Source of the DNA: an uncultured Desulfobacteraceae bacterium
GTDB lineage: Bacteria > Desulfobacterota > Desulfobacteria > Desulfobacterales > Desulfatirhabdiaceae
Length of the DNA stretch: 35,046 nucleotides
Assembly (NCBI GenBank): GCA_903953895.1
Contig: CAJBLH010000153.1
Coordinates: forward strand, 1 to 35,046
Direction of reading: 5' to 3'
The position numbers and the translations under genes were made by a program. A model generated the notes under the pieces. That model was not told the DNA's origin. It worked only from the letters and a program-made list of their open reading frames with translations, and ran no database searches. Positions within the stretch are counted from its first letter, which is position 1. Every line of letters starts with the position of its first letter. Below, one piece after another: positions 14,659-22,285 of the stretch.

Positions 14659-15501
14659 TCAATCATAGGAGAACACGCTGCCCACAGCCGCCACCGAAAA
14701 ACGCTCCTTGAAGTGCGCCCCCAACGCCACGGTTGCCGTCATGCCGGTACAATGACACACACCGACCTGCTCCACGCCGAAGGCTTCAAATCTCTTGATC
14801 ACGGCGGCAATTCGCTCCGGTGAAAAAAACATCAGATGGGTTCCACCCAGAATAGCCCGAAGTTTTCGAATCTTCAAGGTTTCCTCGATATGGTCCAGAA
14901 TGTTCAGCACTCCGGAATGGGCGCATCCGAGCAGCACGACTGGATCTGTGGTGGTTTCAATCAGCAGACTGGCGTCATCGCTGATGGGATCCGGAGAAAA
15001 GCCCTGTCCGTCCGGAATTACCAGTTGCGGGTCCTGAAAATCCTGATCCGGTTTGATGGGGACGCCGGTGACAAACCAGATGCCGTCTTCCATCCGACGG
15101 GTCTCTTCCACCCAGGTAAATTCGGCGCCCAGGGCCGTCAATTCTTCTTTTGACAGCGGGCTGCCGATATAGCGGGGTTCGCCGGCCGACATCCGGGGGG
15201 TTTTAAGGTGATGTCTGGTGAAAACCTCCGGATGGGCCACCACATTCACGGGCCCGGTTTCCTGAAGCGCGGTCTTCAATCCGCCGGTATGATCATAGTG
15301 GCCATGGCTGAGAAAAATACGGCCGACGCCTTTGAGGTTTTTTTCGAGCAGTTTCAGATTGAGAGAAAGACCAAGGCCGGAACCGGCATCGAACAGATAC
15401 CGTTTGTCTCCTCTTTCAATCAAGGTACTGAATCCATGCTCTCCGATAAAGCCGGGTCTGCCCACATAATTATCGCATAAAATGGTAACTGCCGTTTTCA
15501 A
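14659..15501 (-). CDS. Metallo-beta-lactamase-fold hydrolase (MJ0296/dihydropterin-type)
   Basis: The protein has 280 residues. It carries the dinuclear metal motif SHGHYDHTGGL (HxHxDH), later metal-ligand regions LLGCAHSGVLN and GVCHCTGM, and the N-terminal TILCDNYVGRPGFIGEHGFS typical of the family annotated as 7,8-dihydropterin-6-yl-methyl-4-(beta-D-ribofuranosyl)aminobenzene 5'-phosphate synthase. True substrates in bacteria are largely unknown. The start codon is TTG, supported by a perfect AGGAGG 4 bases upstream. No operon partner is evident. The HicBA pair follows after 83 bases. Confidence 0.85.
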   Translation of the reverse strand: MKTAVTILCDNYVGRPGFIGEHGFSTLIERGDKRYLFDAGSGLGLSLNLKLLEKNLKGVGRIFLSHGHYDHTGGLKTALQETGPVNVVAHPEVFTRHHLKTPRMSAGEPRYIGSPLSKEELTALGAEFTWVEETRRMEDGIWFVTGVPIKPDQDFQDPQLVIPDGQGFSPDPISDDASLLIETTTDPVVLLGCAHSGVLNILDHIEETLKIRKLRAILGGTHLMFFSPERIAAVIKRFEAFGVEQVGVCHCTGMTATVALGAHFKERFSVAAVGSVFSYD

Positions 15502-15934: not shown

Positions 15935-16315
15935 CTACAACGAATCGGGCATTTTCATGAAGGCCGCCAATGCATTCAGCAACCGTTCGGCGTCTTTTTC
16001 ATCGGAACGGGGTGGTAAACTGGCCAATACCCCCAGACCTTCCGATGCTTCATGGAAGGCTTCCGGAGAAAGCGAGCTGACCAGTGCAAGATGGGCCAGA
16101 GCGTTGACGCGAATCATGTCTTTGGCGATACTCAGGCCCGATCGATCGTCCAAATTTTCATCAATAATGATCATATCCATCAAACCGATTGCGGCGGATC
16201 GTGCGGCTTCTACGGAATTCGCCCAGATGACATCATATATTTTCTCAGCACTCAGACCCTTTGCCAGTTTGGAAAAATTATCGGCTTGTTGGGTAACAAT
16301 CAAAATTCTTTTCAT
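15935..16315 (-). CDS. Degenerate response-regulator receiver domain protein
   Basis: This is a single-domain protein of 126 residues with a CheY-like fold. Asp52 in MIIIDENLDDRSGL is at the phosphoacceptor position, and SS at 80-81 matches the conserved Ser/Thr. However, the acidic pair normally after beta-1 is replaced by TQQ (residues 8-10) and the conserved lysine after beta-5 is missing (SLPPRSDE), so normal phosphorylation chemistry is doubtful. The start chosen is the second of two adjacent ATGs, with AGGAG 5 to 6 bases upstream. It is the last gene of the minus operon with the NifU-like and ORP-like proteins, 72 bases after the former, with hairpins in that gap. It may be a protein-protein adaptor. 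Confidence 0.7.
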   Translation of the reverse strand: MKRILIVTQQADNFSKLAKGLSAEKIYDVIWANSVEAARSAAIGLMDMIIIDENLDDRSGLSIAKDMIRVNALAHLALVSSLSPEAFHEASEGLGVLASLPPRSDEKDAERLLNALAAFMKMPDSL

Positions 16316-16341
16316 CATTTCTCCTAAGTAAAGGCGGAAAA

Positions 16342-16389
16342 TCGGAGGATTCCGACTTCCCGCCCGCAATCGGCATTCGGACGCCGATT
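16342..16389 (-). other. Two hairpins between the NifU-like and receiver-like genes
   Basis: The first hairpin has arms TCGGA (342-346) and TCCGA (351-355) around a 4-base loop. The second has 7-base arms AATCGGC (16368-16374) and GCCGATT (16383-16389) around 8 bases, touching the NifU-like stop codon. No U-run follows either on the minus strand, so they look more like mRNA processing or stability elements than terminators. Confidence 0.45.
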
Positions 16390-16831
16390 ATCGCGTGTTT
16401 TTTTCTGAATTTCCCCATTCTTTCCGGTAATAATCTTCGATGGCTTCACCCAGCGTGTTCACCGCCAGGGATGCGCAATGCATGTGGTCTTCGGGTAAAC
16501 CGCCCAGTTCCGCAGCCACAGCCTCAGGTGTCACGCCCAAAGCCTCTTCCAGGCTTTTGCCGCTGACCAGTTGGCTTACGGCGCTGCCGCAGGCGACCGT
16601 ATAAATACAACCATGGGGAATCTGACCGATATTTAGGATCGTCAGATTCAGAATAGACAGGGAAATTTCAATGGAATCCCCGCAGACGCCGACACCGGTC
16701 GCCTTTCCCGCTGCTTTCGGTATGGCCCCCATATTCCGGGGTTGATTGGCATGCACATAAAACCGTTCGTCAAGCAGATGGGGTGGATGATCATTTCCCT
16801 TTTCAGGAAGCTTGCTCTCTCTTGTCATCAT
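16388..16831 (-). CDS. NifU/IscU-like iron-sulfur cluster scaffold protein
   Basis: The protein has 147 residues of the NifU_N/IscU fold. The cluster ligands are in place: Cys50-Gly-Asp52 (GVCGDSIEI), Cys75 (PHGCIYTV) and His118-Cys119 (MHCASLAVNTL), with an extra Cys81. The N-terminus is longer than in IscU and carries HVPR-type residues. IscU-like proteins assemble a 2Fe-2S or 4Fe-4S cluster for delivery to clients. No cysteine desulfurase gene is nearby. It sits 12 bases after the third NifX/ORP-like gene and may supply clusters to the ferredoxin-bearing ATPases encoded on the other arm (inference). GAGGCG lies before the ATG-ATG start. Confidence 0.85.
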   Translation of the reverse strand: MMTRESKLPEKGNDHPPHLLDERFYVHANQPRNMGAIPKAAGKATGVGVCGDSIEISLSILNLTILNIGQIPHGCIYTVACGSAVSQLVSGKSLEEALGVTPEAVAAELGGLPEDHMHCASLAVNTLGEAIEDYYRKEWGNSEKNTR

Positions 16832-16843
16832 CGCGCCTCGCTG

Positions 16844-17221
16844 TTAATGCGCACCGCCGCCGCAGGTATGTTCCTGAGAAAACTGCGGAAGCTTACCATC
16901 AAGTAGCGCCTGCACGGCATTTCCAACGGTCTGGAAGTCTCCGCCGAAATAAACCTGAATTCCCACCTGGTTAAACCCCATAAGCGGGCGAAATCCCATG
17001 CCGCCGGCGATCAGTTTGGCAGCGCCTTTACCGGCCAGATACTGGACAGGCGCCATGCACCCACCCTGTTGATGCGGAACATTGGGGATCACATCAACAT
17101 TCTTGACGGTGTTGTCTTCCACGGTAACCAGCGTATAGAGGTCACAGTGACCAAAATGTGCGCCCAACTGAGCGTCAAGTCCACCCGGCGCCGAGGAAGG
17201 GATAGCGATTAAAGTATTCAA
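16844..17221 (-). CDS. NifX/NifB-C family (dinitrogenase iron-molybdenum cofactor) protein, C-terminal CGGGxH tail
   Basis: The protein has 125 residues with the RNase H-like Nif cofactor-binding fold. The core reads IAIPS...GGLDAQLGAHFGHCDLYTLV, then HQQGGCMAPVQYLAGKGAAKLIAGGMGFRPLMGF. The tail QEHTCGGGAH ends in a Cys-Gly3-Ala-His metal-binding-like motif common in this subfamily. Relatives bind FeMo-co precursors or, in ORP, a Mo-Cu-S cluster. The start is TTG with AAGGAG 8 bases before it. The only nearby ATG is out of frame. It follows the second NifX/ORP-like gene after 121 bases, and that gap holds a small CAGGC/GCCTG stem without a U-run. Confidence 0.85.
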   Translation of the reverse strand: MNTLIAIPSSAPGGLDAQLGAHFGHCDLYTLVTVEDNTVKNVDVIPNVPHQQGGCMAPVQYLAGKGAAKLIAGGMGFRPLMGFNQVGIQVYFGGDFQTVGNAVQALLDGKLPQFSQEHTCGGGAH

Positions 17222-17342: not shown

Positions 17343-17711
17343 TTATGCGCCATGGCCCATACTGTTTGGCTCTGAGGCCATGTCAACCTCGCCTGCCTTG
17401 AATTTGGCAATGGCCTGACGGACCGTCAGGTTCTCCAGATTCTGGCCGACTTGAATGCCTGCGGCGGACAGCGCCCGAAATGCCTTGGGTCCGACAGATC
17501 CTGTCAGAACCACGTTGGCTCCAGATCGGCAAACAGTTTCAGCCGCTTGTATGCCGGCTCCCTGGGCCATTGCCTGTGATGATCCGTTATCTACAAACCT
17601 GGATTCAAGGGTGTCCGGATCGATGATACAAAATCCGGCGGCACGGCCAAACCGGGGATCGATCAGCGAATCCAGACCTGGTTCTTCACAACTAACTGCA
17701 ATTTTTACCAT
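17343..17711 (-). CDS. ORP-like protein of the NifX/NifB-C family
   Basis: The protein has 122 residues. KIAVSCEEPGLDSLIDPRFGRAAGFCIIDPDTLE at the N-terminus and GAGIQAAETVCRSGANVVLTGSVGPKAFRALSAAGIQV in the middle are the pattern of orange protein (ORP) and related DIMC-domain proteins, which in Desulfovibrio gigas hold a Mo-Cu sulfide cluster non-covalently. Of the three family members in this operon it is the closest to the plain single-domain ORP form. GAGGAG lies 7 bases before the ATG. Its physiological function is not fully established even in well-studied relatives. Cluster binding here is inferred from the family. Confidence 0.85.
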   Translation of the reverse strand: MVKIAVSCEEPGLDSLIDPRFGRAAGFCIIDPDTLESRFVDNGSSQAMAQGAGIQAAETVCRSGANVVLTGSVGPKAFRALSAAGIQVGQNLENLTVRQAIAKFKAGEVDMASEPNSMGHGA

Positions 17712-17750: not shown

Positions 17751-18185
17751 TCAGTTGACACCTTGGCCGCCACGCGGATTCATACAACCGCCATGTCTGT
17801 TTGCACGATGCGCCTTATTTCCCAATGAATCTGTTCCGGACAACCGGTCTTTGCGGCATCCAGGCATGGTAAACGCCTCTTTTCTAAAATCACCGGAGAG
17901 CCATGCTTGAATGATTTCACAAATATCTCCTGCGACAAAAGAGACCACGCGAATATCATAAGCCGCTATCTGAGATAGCATTAACCGGGAAATGGCTCCG
18001 CAAACCAGCGTGTCAACGCCGAGACTAATCAGACAGCGAACTGTTTCAGAGCCCGAATTCGCAGGCAGTTTTTCATCTCTTTCACGGACTATGCGCCCGG
18101 ATTCAGCCTCAACCAGCCGGATATCTCTGGCTACATCAAATACCGGGGCGATTCGTTTGTTCCAGACTGCAAAAGCTGCTTTCAT
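17751..18185 (-). CDS. NifX/ORP-like protein with Cys/Arg/Gly-rich tail; first gene of the minus operon
   Basis: The protein has 144 residues. The DIMC fold begins MKAAFAVWNKRIAPVFDVARDIRLVEAE and continues TVRCLISLGVDTLVCGAISRLMLSQIAAYDIRVVSFVAGD. After about residue 107 a basic tail with spaced cysteines (MPGCRKDRL...RHGGCMNPRGG) follows and may bind metal or contact partners. AGGTGG is 7 bases before the ATG. A consensus sigma-54 promoter lies 43-57 bases upstream, so this gene leads the operon running to 15935. Confidence 0.85.
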   Translation of the reverse strand: MKAAFAVWNKRIAPVFDVARDIRLVEAESGRIVRERDEKLPANSGSETVRCLISLGVDTLVCGAISRLMLSQIAAYDIRVVSFVAGDICEIIQAWLSGDFRKEAFTMPGCRKDRLSGTDSLGNKAHRANRHGGCMNPRGGQGVN

Positions 18186-18227
18186 CTGTATCCACCTGAG
18201 TTTGTGAGTCTATGAGATGGACATTTT

Positions 18228-18242
18228 GCAAATATAGTGCCA
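18228..18242 (-). promoter_or_regulatory. Sigma-54 promoter of the minus operon
   Basis: On the minus strand the sequence is TGGCAC-TATAT-TTGC, an exact match to the sigma-54 -24/-12 consensus (GG and GC ten bases apart). The expected start of transcription is near 18216, about 30 bases before the first ATG. The sequence match is strong. Activity is inferred. Confidence 0.85.
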
Positions 18243-18269
18243 AATCATTATTAAAATAAAATAAAGATA

Positions 18270-18282
18270 TAACCAGTTGATA
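18270..18282 (-). promoter_or_regulatory. IHF-type binding site between promoter and activator sites
   Basis: The minus strand reads TATCAA-CTGG-TTA, matching the Escherichia coli consensus WATCAA-N4-TTR at every defined position. It lies between the minus sigma-54 promoter and the dyads at 18330-18378, the place where DNA bending would help an activator touch the polymerase. The surrounding 60 bases are very AT-rich. Confidence 0.6.
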
Positions 18283-18329
18283 TTAATTGATATAAAATGC
18301 TGATGCTGCATGGAGGGAGATGAAATTCA

Positions 18330-18345
18330 GTTGCTATATTGCTAT
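18330..18345. promoter_or_regulatory. Putative activator dyad 1 (GTTGC-N6-GCTAT)
   Basis: This is the first of three 16-base elements sharing GTNGC-N6-GC. The right arm is degenerate. It lies 88 bases upstream of the minus sigma-54 promoter and begins 33 bases (about three helical turns) from dyad 2. It is a likely enhancer site for the adjacent NtrC-type activator. Confidence 0.55.
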
Positions 18346-18362
18346 CCTTATCGGTTGAACAA

Positions 18363-18378
18363 GTAGCATTATTGCGAC
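18363..18378. promoter_or_regulatory. Putative activator dyad 2 (GTAGC-N6-GCGAC)
   Basis: This is the second copy. Its right arm GCGAC is identical to that of dyad 3, and the left arm differs from a perfect inverted repeat (GTCGC) at one base. It starts 137 bases, about 13 turns, before dyad 3. Confidence 0.6.
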
Positions 18379-18499
18379 TGATGTTTTATCGACCCGTCGG
18401 CTCATGCAAGCAGTTTAATCGGGTAAGGATCGGTGGAGCGATGCGCGGCTTTTCTGATTGCTTTGAGTCGTAATATCCATACGCTGCTGTTCATACAGG

Positions 18500-18515
18500 G
18501 TTGCAAATTTGCGAC
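18500..18515. promoter_or_regulatory. Putative activator dyad 3 (GTTGC-N6-GCGAC)
   Basis: This is the best copy. Its central ten bases GCAAATTTGC form a perfect palindrome and the full 16-mer is a near-perfect inverted repeat. It lies 74 bases upstream of the plus-strand sigma-54-like promoter, a normal enhancer distance. Confidence 0.65.
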
Positions 18516-18588
18516 AATATAATAACCGACAATCCGCCATATACCTTGTTAAGCTTAAAATTCAGGATATTATAAATAAATTCGGCGC

Positions 18589-18603
18589 TGGCATGTTAAA
18601 TGC
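18589..18603 (+). promoter_or_regulatory. Sigma-54-like promoter of the plus operon
   Basis: The sequence TGGCAT-GTTAA-ATGC has GG and GC at the required ten-base spacing, with two departures from TGGCAC-N5-TTGC. The predicted transcription start is near 18615, giving a leader of about 100 bases before the first ATG. Confidence 0.65.
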
Positions 18604-18613
18604 TTAATGACAA

Positions 18614-18627
18614 GAGCCAGGAGGCTC
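18614..18627 (+). other. Hairpin at the predicted 5' end of the plus operon mRNA
   Basis: Arms GAGCC (18614-18618) and GGCTC (18623-18627) close a 4-base AGGA loop. The hairpin starts at the expected +1 of the sigma-54-like promoter, so it could protect the 5' end of the transcript. Confidence 0.4.
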
Positions 18628-18716
18628 CGGTTGTAGAGAGGGGCCTAAAGACGGCGCTGGTCCAGGTTCAGGGGGCCGGTAAAGAAAATACTACGAATAA
18701 ATCAGGCAAGGAGTAA

Positions 18717-19607
18717 ATGATGATTATCAGTATAGCAAGCGGAAAGGGCGGTACGGGCAAGACAACGATCGCCACGAACCTGGCCGTTTCTCTTGGGGGC
18801 GATGTTCAACTTTTGGACTGCGACGTGGAGGAGCCCAATGCTTACCTCTTCATCCGACCCGAAATTCATGAAACCGTGATCATTAACACCCCGGTTCCCG
18901 AAGTGGATATGAAAAAGTGCAATCTTTGTGGCAAGTGTCGGGATATCTGCCAGTTCAAGGCGATTGTCATCATGAGCAAAACCGTCCTGCCTTTCCCTGA
19001 ACTCTGCCATAGTTGCGGCGGCTGCATGCGCGTCTGCCCTGAAAATGCCATCACGGAGACGGGTCGCGAAATCGGCGTCATCGAACGGAGCGGCAGAAAC
19101 GGGCTGGAATTTGTTCATGGGAAACTGCGGGTCGGCGAGGCCATGTCTCCCCCTTTGATTCGAAAAGTACGAGAATACGCAAGGCCCGGCGCCCTGACCA
19201 TTATCGATGCCCCTCCCGGAACGTCGTGCCCAGTTATCGCCGCCATGAAAGGGGCGGACTTTGTTCTTCTGGTAACCGAACCTACGCCTTTCGGTCTCCA
19301 CGACCTCAAACTTGCCGTGGGGGCCGTTAAAATCCTCGATATTCCCTGCGGACTGGTTATCAACCGCTCGGACATGGGCGATGACCGCGTCAGAGGGTAT
19401 GCAGAAGGCCTGGGAATGCCCATTTTGATGGAGATCCCTTTTGATCGAAAAATCGCTGAGGCCTATTCGCAGGGCGAAATGCTTGTGGAAGTGATGCCGG
19501 AATGGAAAGAAAGATTCCTGAATCTGCACCATCGGATTGCAGAAATCCTCTCTCAAACACCAACTCAGAATAATCCCGAGGAATCAAGGAAAAGAGACGT
19601 CTCATGA
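18717..19607 (+). CDS. MinD/Mrp-family P-loop ATPase with inserted 2x[4Fe-4S] ferredoxin domain (1)
   Basis: The protein has 296 residues. The deviant Walker A GKGGTGKTT (residues 9-17) and DCDVEEPN place it in the MinD/ParA/Mrp group. A ferredoxin module is inserted at residues 68-107: Cys68-x2-Cys71-x2-Cys74-x3-Cys78 and Cys97-x2-Cys100-x2-Cys103-x3-Cys107. The later IIDAPPGTSCPVIAAMKGADFVLLVTEPTPFG is the switch region. AAGGAG precedes two in-frame ATGs (18717 and 18720), and either may serve. It overlaps the next ATPase gene by 4 bases, so they likely form a pair. In Desulfovibrio vulgaris similar ATPases belong to the ORP complex. A role in cluster transfer or assembly is inference. Confidence 0.9.
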   Translation: MMIISIASGKGGTGKTTIATNLAVSLGGDVQLLDCDVEEPNAYLFIRPEIHETVIINTPVPEVDMKKCNLCGKCRDICQFKAIVIMSKTVLPFPELCHSCGGCMRVCPENAITETGREIGVIERSGRNGLEFVHGKLRVGEAMSPPLIRKVREYARPGALTIIDAPPGTSCPVIAAMKGADFVLLVTEPTPFGLHDLKLAVGAVKILDIPCGLVINRSDMGDDRVRGYAEGLGMPILMEIPFDRKIAEAYSQGEMLVEVMPEWKERFLNLHHRIAEILSQTPTQNNPEESRKRDVS

Positions 19608-20470
19608 AAGAACTGATCGTTATCAGCGGAAAAGGCGGAACCGGTAAAACAAGCCTGCTGGCCGCTTTTGCTTCCCTGGCTAAGGGGATGGTGCTTTGTG
19701 ACGCGGATGTGGACGCAGCGGACCTTCATCTGATCATGGATCCCCGGATTGTGGAGCGTCATGATTTTGAGTCCGGCCATACGGCGGTAATCAACCTGGA
19801 TCAGTGTACGCAATGCGGCTTGTGCCAGGGTAATTGCAAATGGAATGCCATCAGCGAAGCGTTTATTGTGGATCCCATTGCATGCGAGGGATGCGGGGTT
19901 TGCTATTATTTTTGCCCGGAGAAGGCCATCGCGTTTCCTCAGGATACATGCGGGGAGTGGTTTATTTCCGATACGCGGTTCGGGCCCATGGCGCATGCAA
20001 GACTGGGCATCGCCGAGGAAAATTCGGGCAAGCTTGTCAGCCTGATCAGACGGCAGGGCAAATTGCTTGGCGGAAAGAAAAACCTGGATCTGCTGTTAAC
20101 GGACGGCCCTCCAGGCATCGGTTGCCCGGTAATCGCCTCCCTTGGCGGAGCCACAGCAGCGCTCATCGTGACAGAGCCCACGATTTCGGGCAGGCACGAC
20201 ATGGAGCGGGTGGCGGAGTTGGCCGCCTTCTTCAGGGTCCCAGCCTTGGTCTGTATCAACAAATATGACCTCAATCCCGAAATGGGACAGGCCATCGAAG
20301 CATCTACGAAAGAAAAAAACATGACCGTCCTGGGCCGTATCCCTTTTGATCCGGTCTTTACAAAGGCAATGGTTCAGGGGAAAACGGTTATCGAATATGA
20401 TCCCCATTCTGATGGCGCGCTTGCGGTCAAAAATATATGGGAAGACCTGGCCCGGCATCTGGGGTTGTAA
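19604..20470 (+). CDS. MinD/Mrp-family P-loop ATPase with inserted 2x[4Fe-4S] ferredoxin domain (2)
   Basis: The protein has 288 residues and is a paralogue of the upstream gene. Walker A is GKGGTGKTS (residues 9-17) with CDADVDAADLHL after it. Cluster motifs are Cys68, Cys71, Cys74, Cys78 and Cys94, Cys97, Cys100, Cys104. TDGPPGIGCPVIASLGGATAALIVTEPTISG is the switch region. Its ATG overlaps the stop of the first ATPase (ATGA), which suggests stoichiometric synthesis and a heteromeric complex. Together with the NifU-like and ORP-like proteins of the divergent operon it probably acts in building or handling a metal-sulfur cofactor. Confidence 0.9.
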   Translation: MKELIVISGKGGTGKTSLLAAFASLAKGMVLCDADVDAADLHLIMDPRIVERHDFESGHTAVINLDQCTQCGLCQGNCKWNAISEAFIVDPIACEGCGVCYYFCPEKAIAFPQDTCGEWFISDTRFGPMAHARLGIAEENSGKLVSLIRRQGKLLGGKKNLDLLLTDGPPGIGCPVIASLGGATAALIVTEPTISGRHDMERVAELAAFFRVPALVCINKYDLNPEMGQAIEASTKEKNMTVLGRIPFDPVFTKAMVQGKTVIEYDPHSDGALAVKNIWEDLARHLGL

Positions 20471-20529
20471 TTCGAACAATTGATTGATTGATGTCGCCCG
20501 ATAAGGTCGGGAAAGAAAGGAGTGACAAA

Positions 20530-20820
20530 ATGCAAAATGAAGTGATTCAAAAACTCGGCTATGTAGCAGGGGAAATCGTGAAGGGCTATGCCGGAAAATC
20601 CACACAGCAAGGACAGGCAACCGGCAGAATATCGGAAAACGTAACGGATCTGATCATTGATCAGGTTATCAATGCTCTCGGCGGCGGTAGAAAAGCCGGC
20701 CAGGGTAGTGGTAGTGGTAGTGGAAAAGGTGGTGGCAGAGGTGGAAAGGGTTGCGGCGGTGGTGGTGGAAAGGGTGGCGGCGGTGGCGGTGGACGCGGAA
20801 CCGGTTGCAGCGGTGCTTGA
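20530..20820 (+). CDS. Small protein with Gly/Cys-rich low-complexity tail
   Basis: The protein has 96 residues. Residues 1-50 are amphipathic and helix-like (MQNEVIQKLGYVAGEIVKGY, then VTDLIIDQVINAL). Residues 51-96 are almost only Gly, Lys, Arg and Ser with Cys75 and Cys93. A start at 20488 is also open, but AAAGGAG lies 7 to 8 bases before the ATG at 20530. It is the third gene of the plus operon, 59 bases after the second ATPase. Its DNA is a run of GGTGGTGGA-like units, prone to slippage, so tail length may vary between strains. No family is recognised. The tail could be a flexible metal-binding or assembly segment. Confidence 0.75.
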   Translation: MQNEVIQKLGYVAGEIVKGYAGKSTQQGQATGRISENVTDLIIDQVINALGGGRKAGQGSGSGSGKGGGRGGKGCGGGGGKGGGGGGGRGTGCSGA

Positions 20821-20899: not shown

Positions 20900-22285
20900 T
20901 CATGTCGGGATTCGGGTTCTCCCATCCCTTGACGGCAGGGAAAGACCCAGCCGCTTCATCTTTCGGAACAGGGTACTCTTGTGGATACCGAGCGAGCAGG
21001 CTGCAGCCAGACGGTTAAAATCCGCTTGCTCCAGGGCGTTTCGAATAACTTCGGCCTCCATCAGGTCCCTGGATGTCTGCATATCGGCGTGACATATCCT
21101 TGTCATGTAACGGGCCGACAGTTCTTCCGGTAAATGTTCGATAGCAATGACACCCTCGTTGCACAGGATAAAGGCGCGTTCGATTGCATTTTCCAGCTCG
21201 CGGATGTTTCCCGGCCAGTCATGGGCCATCAGCAGGGAAATCGCTTCGGGGGCGATCCCCCGGATGGTTTTTTGCTGAAGCCGGTTGAACCGGGCGATAA
21301 ATTGCTCCACCAGCAGTGGAATATCTTCCTTTCGCCGACGAAGCGGTGGCAGTTCGACACGGATGACATTCACGCGATAATACAAGTCCTCACGGAATAC
21401 ATGCTGGCGCACCAGTTCGGACAGATCCTTGTTGGTCGCAACAATTATTCTTGCGTTGGTGGTTTCGGATTGGGTTGCCCCCAGGGGTTCATAGGTTCGG
21501 TCCTGAAGCACCCGCAACAGTCGTACCTGAAACGCCGGGCTCACTTCAGCGATTTCATCCAGAAAAAGGGTTCCATTTTTGGCCATCGCAAAACGCCCCG
21601 GCTTGTCCTTTCCCGCACCTGTAAAGGCCCCTGCCTTATATCCGAAGAGTTCGGATTCCAGAAGGGTATCCGGCAAAGCGCCGCAATTGACGGCAATAAA
21701 GGGATTTTTGCTTTGGGGACTCAATGCGTGAATCGTTTTCGCCACCAGTTCCTTGCCGGTTCCGGTTTCGCCTAAAATCAGCACGGTACTGGGGCTGGCT
21801 GCGATGGCGGGGAGAACGTGAAAACACCTCTGCATCAGGGGACTGCGACTTGACATATCCCCGATATGAAAGCGCCCCTCCAGCTCCTGGCGCAGGGCTT
21901 CGACTTCGCTCAGATCCCGGAAAGTCTCCGCTCCGCCGATAATCTGTCCCTGACCATCCCGAAGGACTGCGGTGGAAACGCTGACCGGAATGCGGGTGCC
22001 TTCCGCGTCAATAATGTAACCGGATTGGCCGATGATCGCTTTGCGGTTTTTCAGGGTCCGCCGCAGTGCGCATTCGATTTCGCACATGCTGGAGCGGAAC
22101 ACTTCCGAGCAGAACCGGCCGATGGCTTCGCTGCGTGAAGTTTTGGTAATCTTCTCGGCCGCCCGATTAAACGAAGTGATGCGCCACTCCCGGTCCACTG
22201 TGAAAACACCATCTGAAATGCTTTCAAGGATGGCTTCGGTCGGTGTAAGCGGGCCGGGCGTTTTTGTCTTTTTAAGAACGTTCAT
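20900..22285 (-). CDS. Sigma-54-dependent transcriptional activator with Cys-containing PAS domain
   Basis: The protein has 461 residues. A PAS domain (about 15-130) holds Cys59, Cys68 and Cys72 in GRFCSEVFRSSMCEIECALRR. The AAA+ domain has Walker A GETGTGKE (172-179), an intact sigma-54 contact loop GAFTGA (219-224) and Walker B TLFLDEIAE. A Fis-type helix-turn-helix ends the protein (NRLAAACSLGIHKSTLFRKMKRLGL). There is no receiver domain, so it senses its signal directly, perhaps redox state or a metal through the PAS cysteines (inference). It is convergent with the plus ATPase operon and is the obvious candidate to bind the three dyads at 18330-18515 and activate both sigma-54 promoters. 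No strong Shine-Dalgarno is adjacent to the ATG. AGGAG lies 16 bases upstream. Confidence 0.92.
   Translation of the reverse strand: MNVLKKTKTPGPLTPTEAILESISDGVFTVDREWRITSFNRAAEKITKTSRSEAIGRFCSEVFRSSMCEIECALRRTLKNRKAIIGQSGYIIDAEGTRIPVSVSTAVLRDGQGQIIGGAETFRDLSEVEALRQELEGRFHIGDMSSRSPLMQRCFHVLPAIAASPSTVLILGETGTGKELVAKTIHALSPQSKNPFIAVNCGALPDTLLESELFGYKAGAFTGAGKDKPGRFAMAKNGTLFLDEIAEVSPAFQVRLLRVLQDRTYEPLGATQSETTNARIIVATNKDLSELVRQHVFREDLYYRVNVIRVELPPLRRRKEDIPLLVEQFIARFNRLQQKTIRGIAPEAISLLMAHDWPGNIRELENAIERAFILCNEGVIAIEHLPEELSARYMTRICHADMQTSRDLMEAEVIRNALEQADFNRLAAACSLGIHKSTLFRKMKRLGLSLPSRDGRTRIPT

Follow-up and report, generated by a model that had tools for sequence, protein, structure and literature searches.

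The DNA analysed here (the window, a stretch of 35,046 nucleotides) belongs to genome G000, which comprises 5.47 Mb in 315 contigs and whose nearest named relatives, among the matches listed, are uncultured Desulfobacteraceae and Deltaproteobacteria metagenome bins. An intergenic region of 531 bp (18186-18716) parts two divergent gene sets and contains a predicted sigma-54 promoter for each. The minus-side set encodes three NifX-like proteins, a NifU_N protein, an unmatched small protein and a metallo-beta-lactamase-fold protein, and the plus-side set encodes a pair of MinD/Mrp-type ATPases that carry ferredoxin inserts, followed by a glycine-rich small protein. A PAS-AAA+-Fis activator gene lies past the plus operon and is convergent to it. 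The arrangement is similar to the orange-protein (ORP) cluster of D. vulgaris, a gene set specific to anaerobes (PMC3897727; PMC6345978). The genes are as follows.

14659-15501, minus strand: metallo-beta-lactamase-fold protein, presumed operon member from its position
15935-16369, minus strand: small protein without a Pfam match, presumed operon member from its position
16388-16831, minus strand: NifU_N scaffold-like protein (Pfam match)
16844-17221, minus strand: third NifX-like protein (Pfam match)
17343-17711, minus strand: second NifX-like protein (Pfam match)
17751-18185, minus strand: NifX-like protein, gene 1 of the minus operon (Pfam match, Nitro_FeMo-Co)
18616-18716, plus strand: leader of the plus operon, what is left of the 3' part of a small glycine-rich gene, intact in the congeneric loci L100 and L144
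18717-19607, plus strand: MinD/Mrp-type ATPase with a ferredoxin (Fer4) insert
19604-20470, plus strand: second MinD/Mrp-type ATPase with a ferredoxin insert
20488-20820, plus strand: small glycine-rich protein without a family match
20900-22285, minus strand: activator (enhancer-binding protein) with a PAS domain carrying three invariant cysteines, a sigma-54-activating AAA+ domain with GAFTGA, and a Fis-type HTH

The sigma-54 core-binding family has one match in G000, indicating one sigma-54 (RpoN) gene, and the HU/IHF family has nine, the ninth being marginal. A scan of 17900-18900 for sigma-70 promoters and terminators returned none above chance. The predicted control sites of the intergenic region are as follows.

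18228-18242, minus strand: predicted sigma-54 promoter of the minus (NifX/NifU) operon, TGGCACTATATTTGC, with an expected start near 18216
18270-18282, minus strand: candidate IHF site of the initial annotation, TATCAA-CTGG-TTA, which matches the consensus WATCARNNNNTTR perfectly in the window only
18330-18345, no strand assigned: dyad 1, GTTGCTATATTGCTAT, predicted proximal activator site for the minus promoter, 109 bp from -12
18363-18378, no strand assigned: dyad 2, GTAGCATTATTGCGAC, predicted distal activator site for the minus promoter, 142 bp from -12
18467-18482, no strand assigned: degenerate dyad, 33 bp distal to dyad 3, suggestive only
18500-18515, no strand assigned: dyad 3, GTTGCAAATTTGCGAC, predicted proximal activator site for the plus promoter, 95 bp from -12
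18560-18572, plus strand: candidate IHF site with one mismatch, between dyad 3 and the plus promoter, a weak motif whose specified bases are the same in four genomes
18589-18603, plus strand: predicted sigma-54 promoter of the plus (MinD) operon, TGGCATGTTAAATGC, with an expected start near 18615

Both sigma-54 promoters and all three dyads (18330, 18363 and 18500) named in the initial annotation were found where it had placed them. The minus promoter, TGGCAC-TATAT-TTGC, fits TGGCAC-N5-TTGC exactly, and the plus promoter, TGGCAT-GTTAA-ATGC, deviates from the consensus in both of its elements (TGGCAT and ATGC). The sigma-54 pattern occurs three times in the whole window compared to 0.61 expected, and the third match, at 19836, falls within the second MinD-like gene. 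The dyad pattern of the initial annotation gave five strand matches in 35 kb, solely at the three dyads and within 186 bp, although a window-wide count of five is unremarkable, being reached in 7 of 100 shuffles (mean 2.17). Against the form GTNGC-N6-GCNAC, dyad 1 has one mismatch in the window.

We compared the window with three congeneric sequences, L099 (genome G132), L100 (G146, of which L145 is the same contig) and L144, in a four-way alignment. Of the 24 positions that define the dyads, one is variable, at the final base of dyad 1, and of the 20 promoter core positions none is (0 of 10 in each promoter), compared to 98 of 330 background positions in 18205-18611, a background that excludes 24 inner dyad positions (5 vary) and nine IHF core positions (1 varies). 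For dyads and promoters together (1 of 44 versus 98 of 330) the Fisher p is ≈1e-5, and for the dyads alone it is 0.003, values to be read with the caveat that the four sequences are closely related and that much of the intergenic region is conserved anyway. All 16 positions of dyad 3 are invariant in the four genomes, and in L144 the centre of dyad 1 is changed with both half-sites kept. The dyads thus passed the test on which the initial annotation had staked them: they are conserved in three close relatives, with half-sites that stay constant while the spacers change.

Several other congeneric loci, L040, L101 and L132-L134 (genomes G096, G147, G148 and G149), have the activator without a NifX-like or MinD1-like gene on the stretches read, where the stretch read in G096 was the 16 kb around the activator of a 32-kb contig. 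G096 has its orp genes on another contig, with dyad and promoter kept. The first NifX-like protein has no match in G147-G149.

In the 5.47 Mb of the genome there are 10 places with the strict palindrome GTHGC-N6-GCDAC, two of them in this region, compared to 120 matches per strand for the same pattern read backwards. The other eight all fall inside stop-to-stop frames 100 or more codons long, and none has a sigma-54-like site (≤2 mismatches) within 220 bp. We therefore rejected the strict palindrome as a pointer to a wider regulon. A pattern made from dyads 2 and 3 and searched with one mismatch finds only those two dyads in the genome, partly by construction (reversed control, three per strand). 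A small ORF within the enhancer, which starts at ATG 18310 and has a frame running through dyad 1, was likewise rejected, as its ATG is missing in L100 and L144.

We took the best 80 listed relatives of the activator and set aside seven congeneric ones, leaving 73 loci. Relatives of 61-75% identity adjoin ORP-type genes far beyond the order; the best 80 include records filed as Nitrospirae, Acidobacteria, Aminicenantes and Verrucomicrobia (many are metagenome bins, with labels as filed) and two named strains, Vibrio albus E4404 and Pontiella sulfatireligans F21. The analysis used those 57 of the 73 loci in which a gene for a FeMo-Co-domain protein lies no more than 700 bp from the activator gene and on its strand; the other 16 have no such gene. 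A perfect GTNGC-N6-GCNAC dyad, located between the activator gene and the NifX-like gene, is present in 43 of the 57 loci (dinucleotide shuffle mean 0.24, largest 2), and a dyad within one mismatch in 53 (shuffle mean 4.65, largest 10). The four loci without a dyad within one mismatch are L171, L200, L203 and L207. A sigma-54 promoter within one mismatch accompanies 38 of the 57 (shuffle mean 0.26). An order-level set of 39 loci, which partly overlaps the first and includes one paralogous pair from the window's own genome, has a dyad within one mismatch in 34 and a perfect one in 20 (shuffle means 1.9 and 0.07); 29 further activator matches at this level, some congeneric and some second copies, were without a qualifying FeMo-Co gene. 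When the activator gene is remote or on the other strand, a perfect dyad is still found upstream of the operon in L101, L051, L080 and L174; operons apart from the activator in L058, L068 and L085 have no perfect dyad. At the divergent locus L194, which has a pair of sigma-54-like promoters, there is no dyad even when two mismatches are allowed.

In the 57 loci, 43 of 44 dyad pairs are spaced 31-34 bp apart, 29 of them at 33 bp (the outlier is at 67), and in the order-level set 17 of 19 pairs are at 32-33 bp. The 33-bp spacing of dyads 1 and 2, which the initial annotation had pointed out, is thus real and conserved elsewhere. Taking the dyad centre and the -12 GC as end points, we measured distances in the 55 loci with a promoter within two mismatches. 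A dyad lies at 106-112 bp in 39 of these, at 139-145 bp in 37, and at 92-98 bp in nine, and a proximal and a distal dyad are both present in 41 of the 57 regions. The modal distances are ≈109 and ≈142 bp, and those of the minus promoter in the window are exactly 109 and 142. For 49 proximal dyads, the distance to the promoter gave a Rayleigh R of 0.60 for helical phase, a value that is uninformative because the loci are related.

In NtrC/NifA-type systems, dyads upstream of -24/-12 promoters are bound by an AAA+ activator, with possible bending of the DNA by IHF. By its sequence features the control region is of this sigma-54/enhancer-binding-protein kind, with predicted -24/-12 promoters, a GAFTGA activator, conserved dyads at enhancer distance and possibly an IHF bend. 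It differs from NtrC/NifA-type systems in that the activator is a one-component PAS protein with three invariant cysteines and in that the 31-34 bp pairing of dyads holds over a large taxonomic distance.

Co-occurrence alone is no proof that the linked activator reads the dyads, since a paralogue could bind them in place of the protein encoded at 20900-22285. We consider as the best evidence here the linked change of recognition helix and palindrome at one and the same place. We sampled a second order around a Desulfomicrobium bin, which we take to belong to the Desulfovibrionales, and pooled these loci with the best-80 loci to classify activators by HTH. Two main classes emerged; 13 activators of unclear class were counted apart, seven of them with a perfect GTNGC dyad. 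H-class proteins have the helix H-K-S/T-T-L-F-R and mostly GAFTGA, and the window activator, with GAFTGA and HKSTLFR, is one of them. D-class proteins, all from the second order, have K-D-T-L-R-R and GAFTDA. Within 400 bp downstream of the activator gene, a perfect GTNGC dyad is present in 57 of 95 H-class loci (best-80 plus second order; reversed control, 1) and in none of 32 D-class loci; upstream of the activator gene it is present in none of the 95 H-class loci. A different palindrome, GRCG-N7-CGYC, is perfect in 22 of the 32 D-class loci (reversed control, 1) compared to 6 of the 95 H-class loci (control, 5). This palindrome was derived from five loci, without which the D-class count is 18 of 27. 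It is also found upstream of the D-class activator gene in 12 of 32 loci (control, 3). When one mismatch is allowed it does not discriminate (31 of 32 D-class loci with a reversed control of 22 of 32, and 44 of 95 H-class loci with a control of 59), so that only perfect matches were used. For D-class sites within one mismatch, the commonest spacing is 31-32 bp (14 pairs), and a smaller cluster of seven lies at 48 bp. The PAS motif C-x8-C-x3-C is present in every activator classified by HTH, and its three cysteines are invariant in all 81 window-class proteins aligned.

The classes also differ in taxonomy, which is not fully separable from the helix; perfect-dyad H-class loci occur in the second order too. 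That dyad type follows recognition-helix class agrees with the proposal of the initial annotation that the activator at 20900-22285 reads the dyads, and on this comparison the dyads are likely upstream activating sites with the linked activator as their reader. If the dyads belonged instead to a different regulator, such as a repressor or nucleoid protein, and the linked activator used other sites, it would be hard to see why they lie within narrow distance ranges upstream of sigma-54 promoters and change in type with the HTH class of the linked activator. Other enhancer-binding proteins do occur near some orp loci, and beside two D-class loci a GTNGC dyad pair 32 bp apart lies behind a second, different enhancer-binding protein (L286:10038-10085 and L295:10417-10464), which implies that more than one protein may read the code. 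Weighing these points, we regard a different regulator as very improbable. With the sites, their conservation, positions and spacing, and the co-variation of dyad type with recognition helix observed, we hold with considerable confidence that this is the control region of an ORP-type Fe-S/metal-cluster gene set in two divergent operons, predicted to be driven by the activator at 20900-22285 through the dyads.

The initial annotation had described three helically phased dyads from which one activator serves both operons. We rejected a single array of phased dyads: the positions relative to each promoter fit two enhancers better, because dyads 1 and 2 occupy the modal places for the minus promoter and dyad 3 a less common place for the plus promoter. 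The 137-bp spacing between dyads 2 and 3 given in the initial annotation holds in the window and L099 and is 136 bp in L100 and L144. The degenerate dyad at 18467, absent from the initial annotation, has mismatches at three of eight positions in the window and L144 and at two of eight in L099 and L100, and is possibly the decayed partner of dyad 3. Of the listed loci beyond the genus, 37 show a NifX-like gene together with a first MinD-like gene; in 35 of them, all but L194 and L215, the MinD-like gene comes after the NifX-like one in the same orientation. A perfect dyad within 450 bp upstream of the first MinD-like gene is found in one of the 37, L188. The plus promoter and dyad 3 hence look like an addition in this genus.

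An alternative is that the activator drives the minus promoter alone, with the plus promoter and dyad 3 being remnants and the MinD operon being transcribed mainly from another promoter. The off-consensus plus promoter (TGGCAT, ATGC), the decayed distal dyad and the truncated first small gene would all suit such remnants. In L100 and L144, a glycine-rich small protein starting MPN(R/K)DGTGP is encoded immediately before the first MinD-like gene, and in the window and L099 this leader gene is without its 5' part and its remainder is not open in frame. Against decay of these sites, four genomes agree at all 10 positions of the plus promoter core and at all 16 of dyad 3, and we consider the alternative unlikely, preferring activation of both promoters.

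The mechanism that we propose is as follows. The activator encoded at 20900-22285 would bind the inverted repeats GTNGC-N6-GCNAC, and would probably be oligomerised on the dyad pair whose 33-bp spacing, about three helical turns, presents one face of the DNA. This pair would serve the minus sigma-54 promoter, and dyad 3, with its decayed partner 33 bp away, would serve the plus promoter; one oligomer could serve both. From these sites the activator would loop to sigma-54 RNA polymerase and open both promoters with ATP, its sensing presumably passing through the PAS cysteines. The minus enhancer, in its usual place between activator gene and NifX-like gene, would be ancestral, and the plus promoter with dyad 3 the apparent later addition in the genus.

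The IHF site of the initial annotation is present in position and sequence at 18270-18282, but its core is TATCAT in all three relatives, so that the perfect consensus is lost there, and a perfect consensus is present in none of 52 spacers of related loci in the best-80 set (shuffle mean 0.36). The site as originally described is thus not supported. In the window the consensus has five matches compared to 2.74 expected, and since 11 of 100 shuffles reach five, it is by itself not above chance. Sites with one mismatch are in modest excess, in 14 of the 52 spacers compared to 7.24 (sd 2.1; largest of 100 shuffles, 11).

These data bear on a stricter version of the proposal, that the region works as the initial annotation says and that bending by IHF through 18270-18282 is essential. 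The perfect match to WATCARNNNNTTR in the window and the excess of one-mismatch sites speak for it, as does the available text of PMC3897727, in which the D. vulgaris orp promoters need IHF in an E. coli reconstitution. The absence of a perfect match from the relatives and related spacers speaks against it, as does the statement of the same text that in D. vulgaris itself orp expression showed no significant change when DVU0396 was lost (PMC3897727). In addition, spacer 18243-18329 is 75% A+T, compared to 68% in the other spacer and 48% in the window, and might bend unaided. We judge an essential role for 18270-18282 doubtful, though well worth entertaining. Its action at the D. vulgaris orp promoters (PMC3897727) keeps IHF plausible at this locus, and the bend might be made by IHF or by the A/T-rich DNA itself. 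One D-class locus, L285, contains a match to one of the two published D. vulgaris 13-base IHF sequences that were searched (three are published).

The general plan, divergent orp operons with sigma-54 and one activator, is already known from D. vulgaris, and the activator class, enhancer code and layout differ here. The initial annotation drew no connection to known ORP regulation. According to the available texts, orange-protein genes occur in many anaerobes and their role is unsettled, with putative functions in cell division and Fe-S biogenesis (PMC6345978; PMC3897727). The available text on D. vulgaris Hildenborough describes divergent orp operons with sigma-54, DVU2106 and IHF, and palindromic activator sites at -131 and -88 from the start sites (PMC3897727). 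As far as that text goes, the window shares with this system its gene content (divergent operons of FeMo-Co-domain and ferredoxin-MinD proteins), two opposed sigma-54 operons, a linked sigma-54 activator and upstream palindromes. Site distances are ≈90-130 bp from the starts in D. vulgaris by the same text and 109/142 and 95 bp from -12 in the window, figures with different reference points. The activators are of different class: the window protein has GAFTGA and HKSTLFR, and DVU2106 has a GAFTDA loop, as given in a table in the available part of PMC4641369. The KDTLRR helix occurs in GAFTDA proteins of the same setting and is ascribed to DVU2106 from these D-class proteins, which are 46-54% identical to the window activator. 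The palindromes differ accordingly, GTNGC-N6-GCNAC in the window and GRCG-N7-CGYC in D-class loci. In layout, the window promoters share one 531-bp region with the activator beyond the plus operon, whereas DVU2106 lies between the operons by published locus tags. No MrpORP (Orp9) fusion protein was found over the cut-off of 450 in ten proteins scanned (best, 55.3 bits). The enhancer code GTNGC-N6-GCNAC has no account in the literature searched, a scope outside which lay most subscription papers, the 2011 founding paper and RegPrecise; the available parts of PMC2725144 and PMC12316311 contain none.

We also advance a broader and distinctly tentative model, which we think somewhat more apt to fail than to hold in full. 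One activator family (C-x8-C-x3-C PAS, AAA+, H-class HTH) with one code, two dyads 32-33 bp apart, would govern ORP-type gene sets under many phyla; a sister class would have exchanged helix and palindrome but retained the cysteines and roughly the same spacing; a metal or Fe-S cluster would be bound by these cysteines; and the module would have been re-used in this genus to split one operon into a divergent pair. If we infer correctly that the PAS cysteines hold such a cluster, the supply of the operon's own product would be the signal. Given a defined enhancer code, with helix and palindrome swapped naturally between the two activator classes, one could look for the regulon in any genome, and the three invariant PAS cysteines (81 of 81) make the signal of the activator testable.

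Three further observations concern related loci. An ORP-type cluster that includes both the activator and a dyad is present in a Vibrio (L213, Vibrio albus E4404), which suggests horizontal spread. The D-class loci L285, L286 and L295 encode, at the place of the leader gene, a protein starting MPGF(D/N)G, which may be the counterpart of Orp5. Finally, the window's own genome has a second activator of ≈50% identity beside another NifX-like gene (L131, G000:C13:46000-60000), with a one-mismatch dyad between the two genes.
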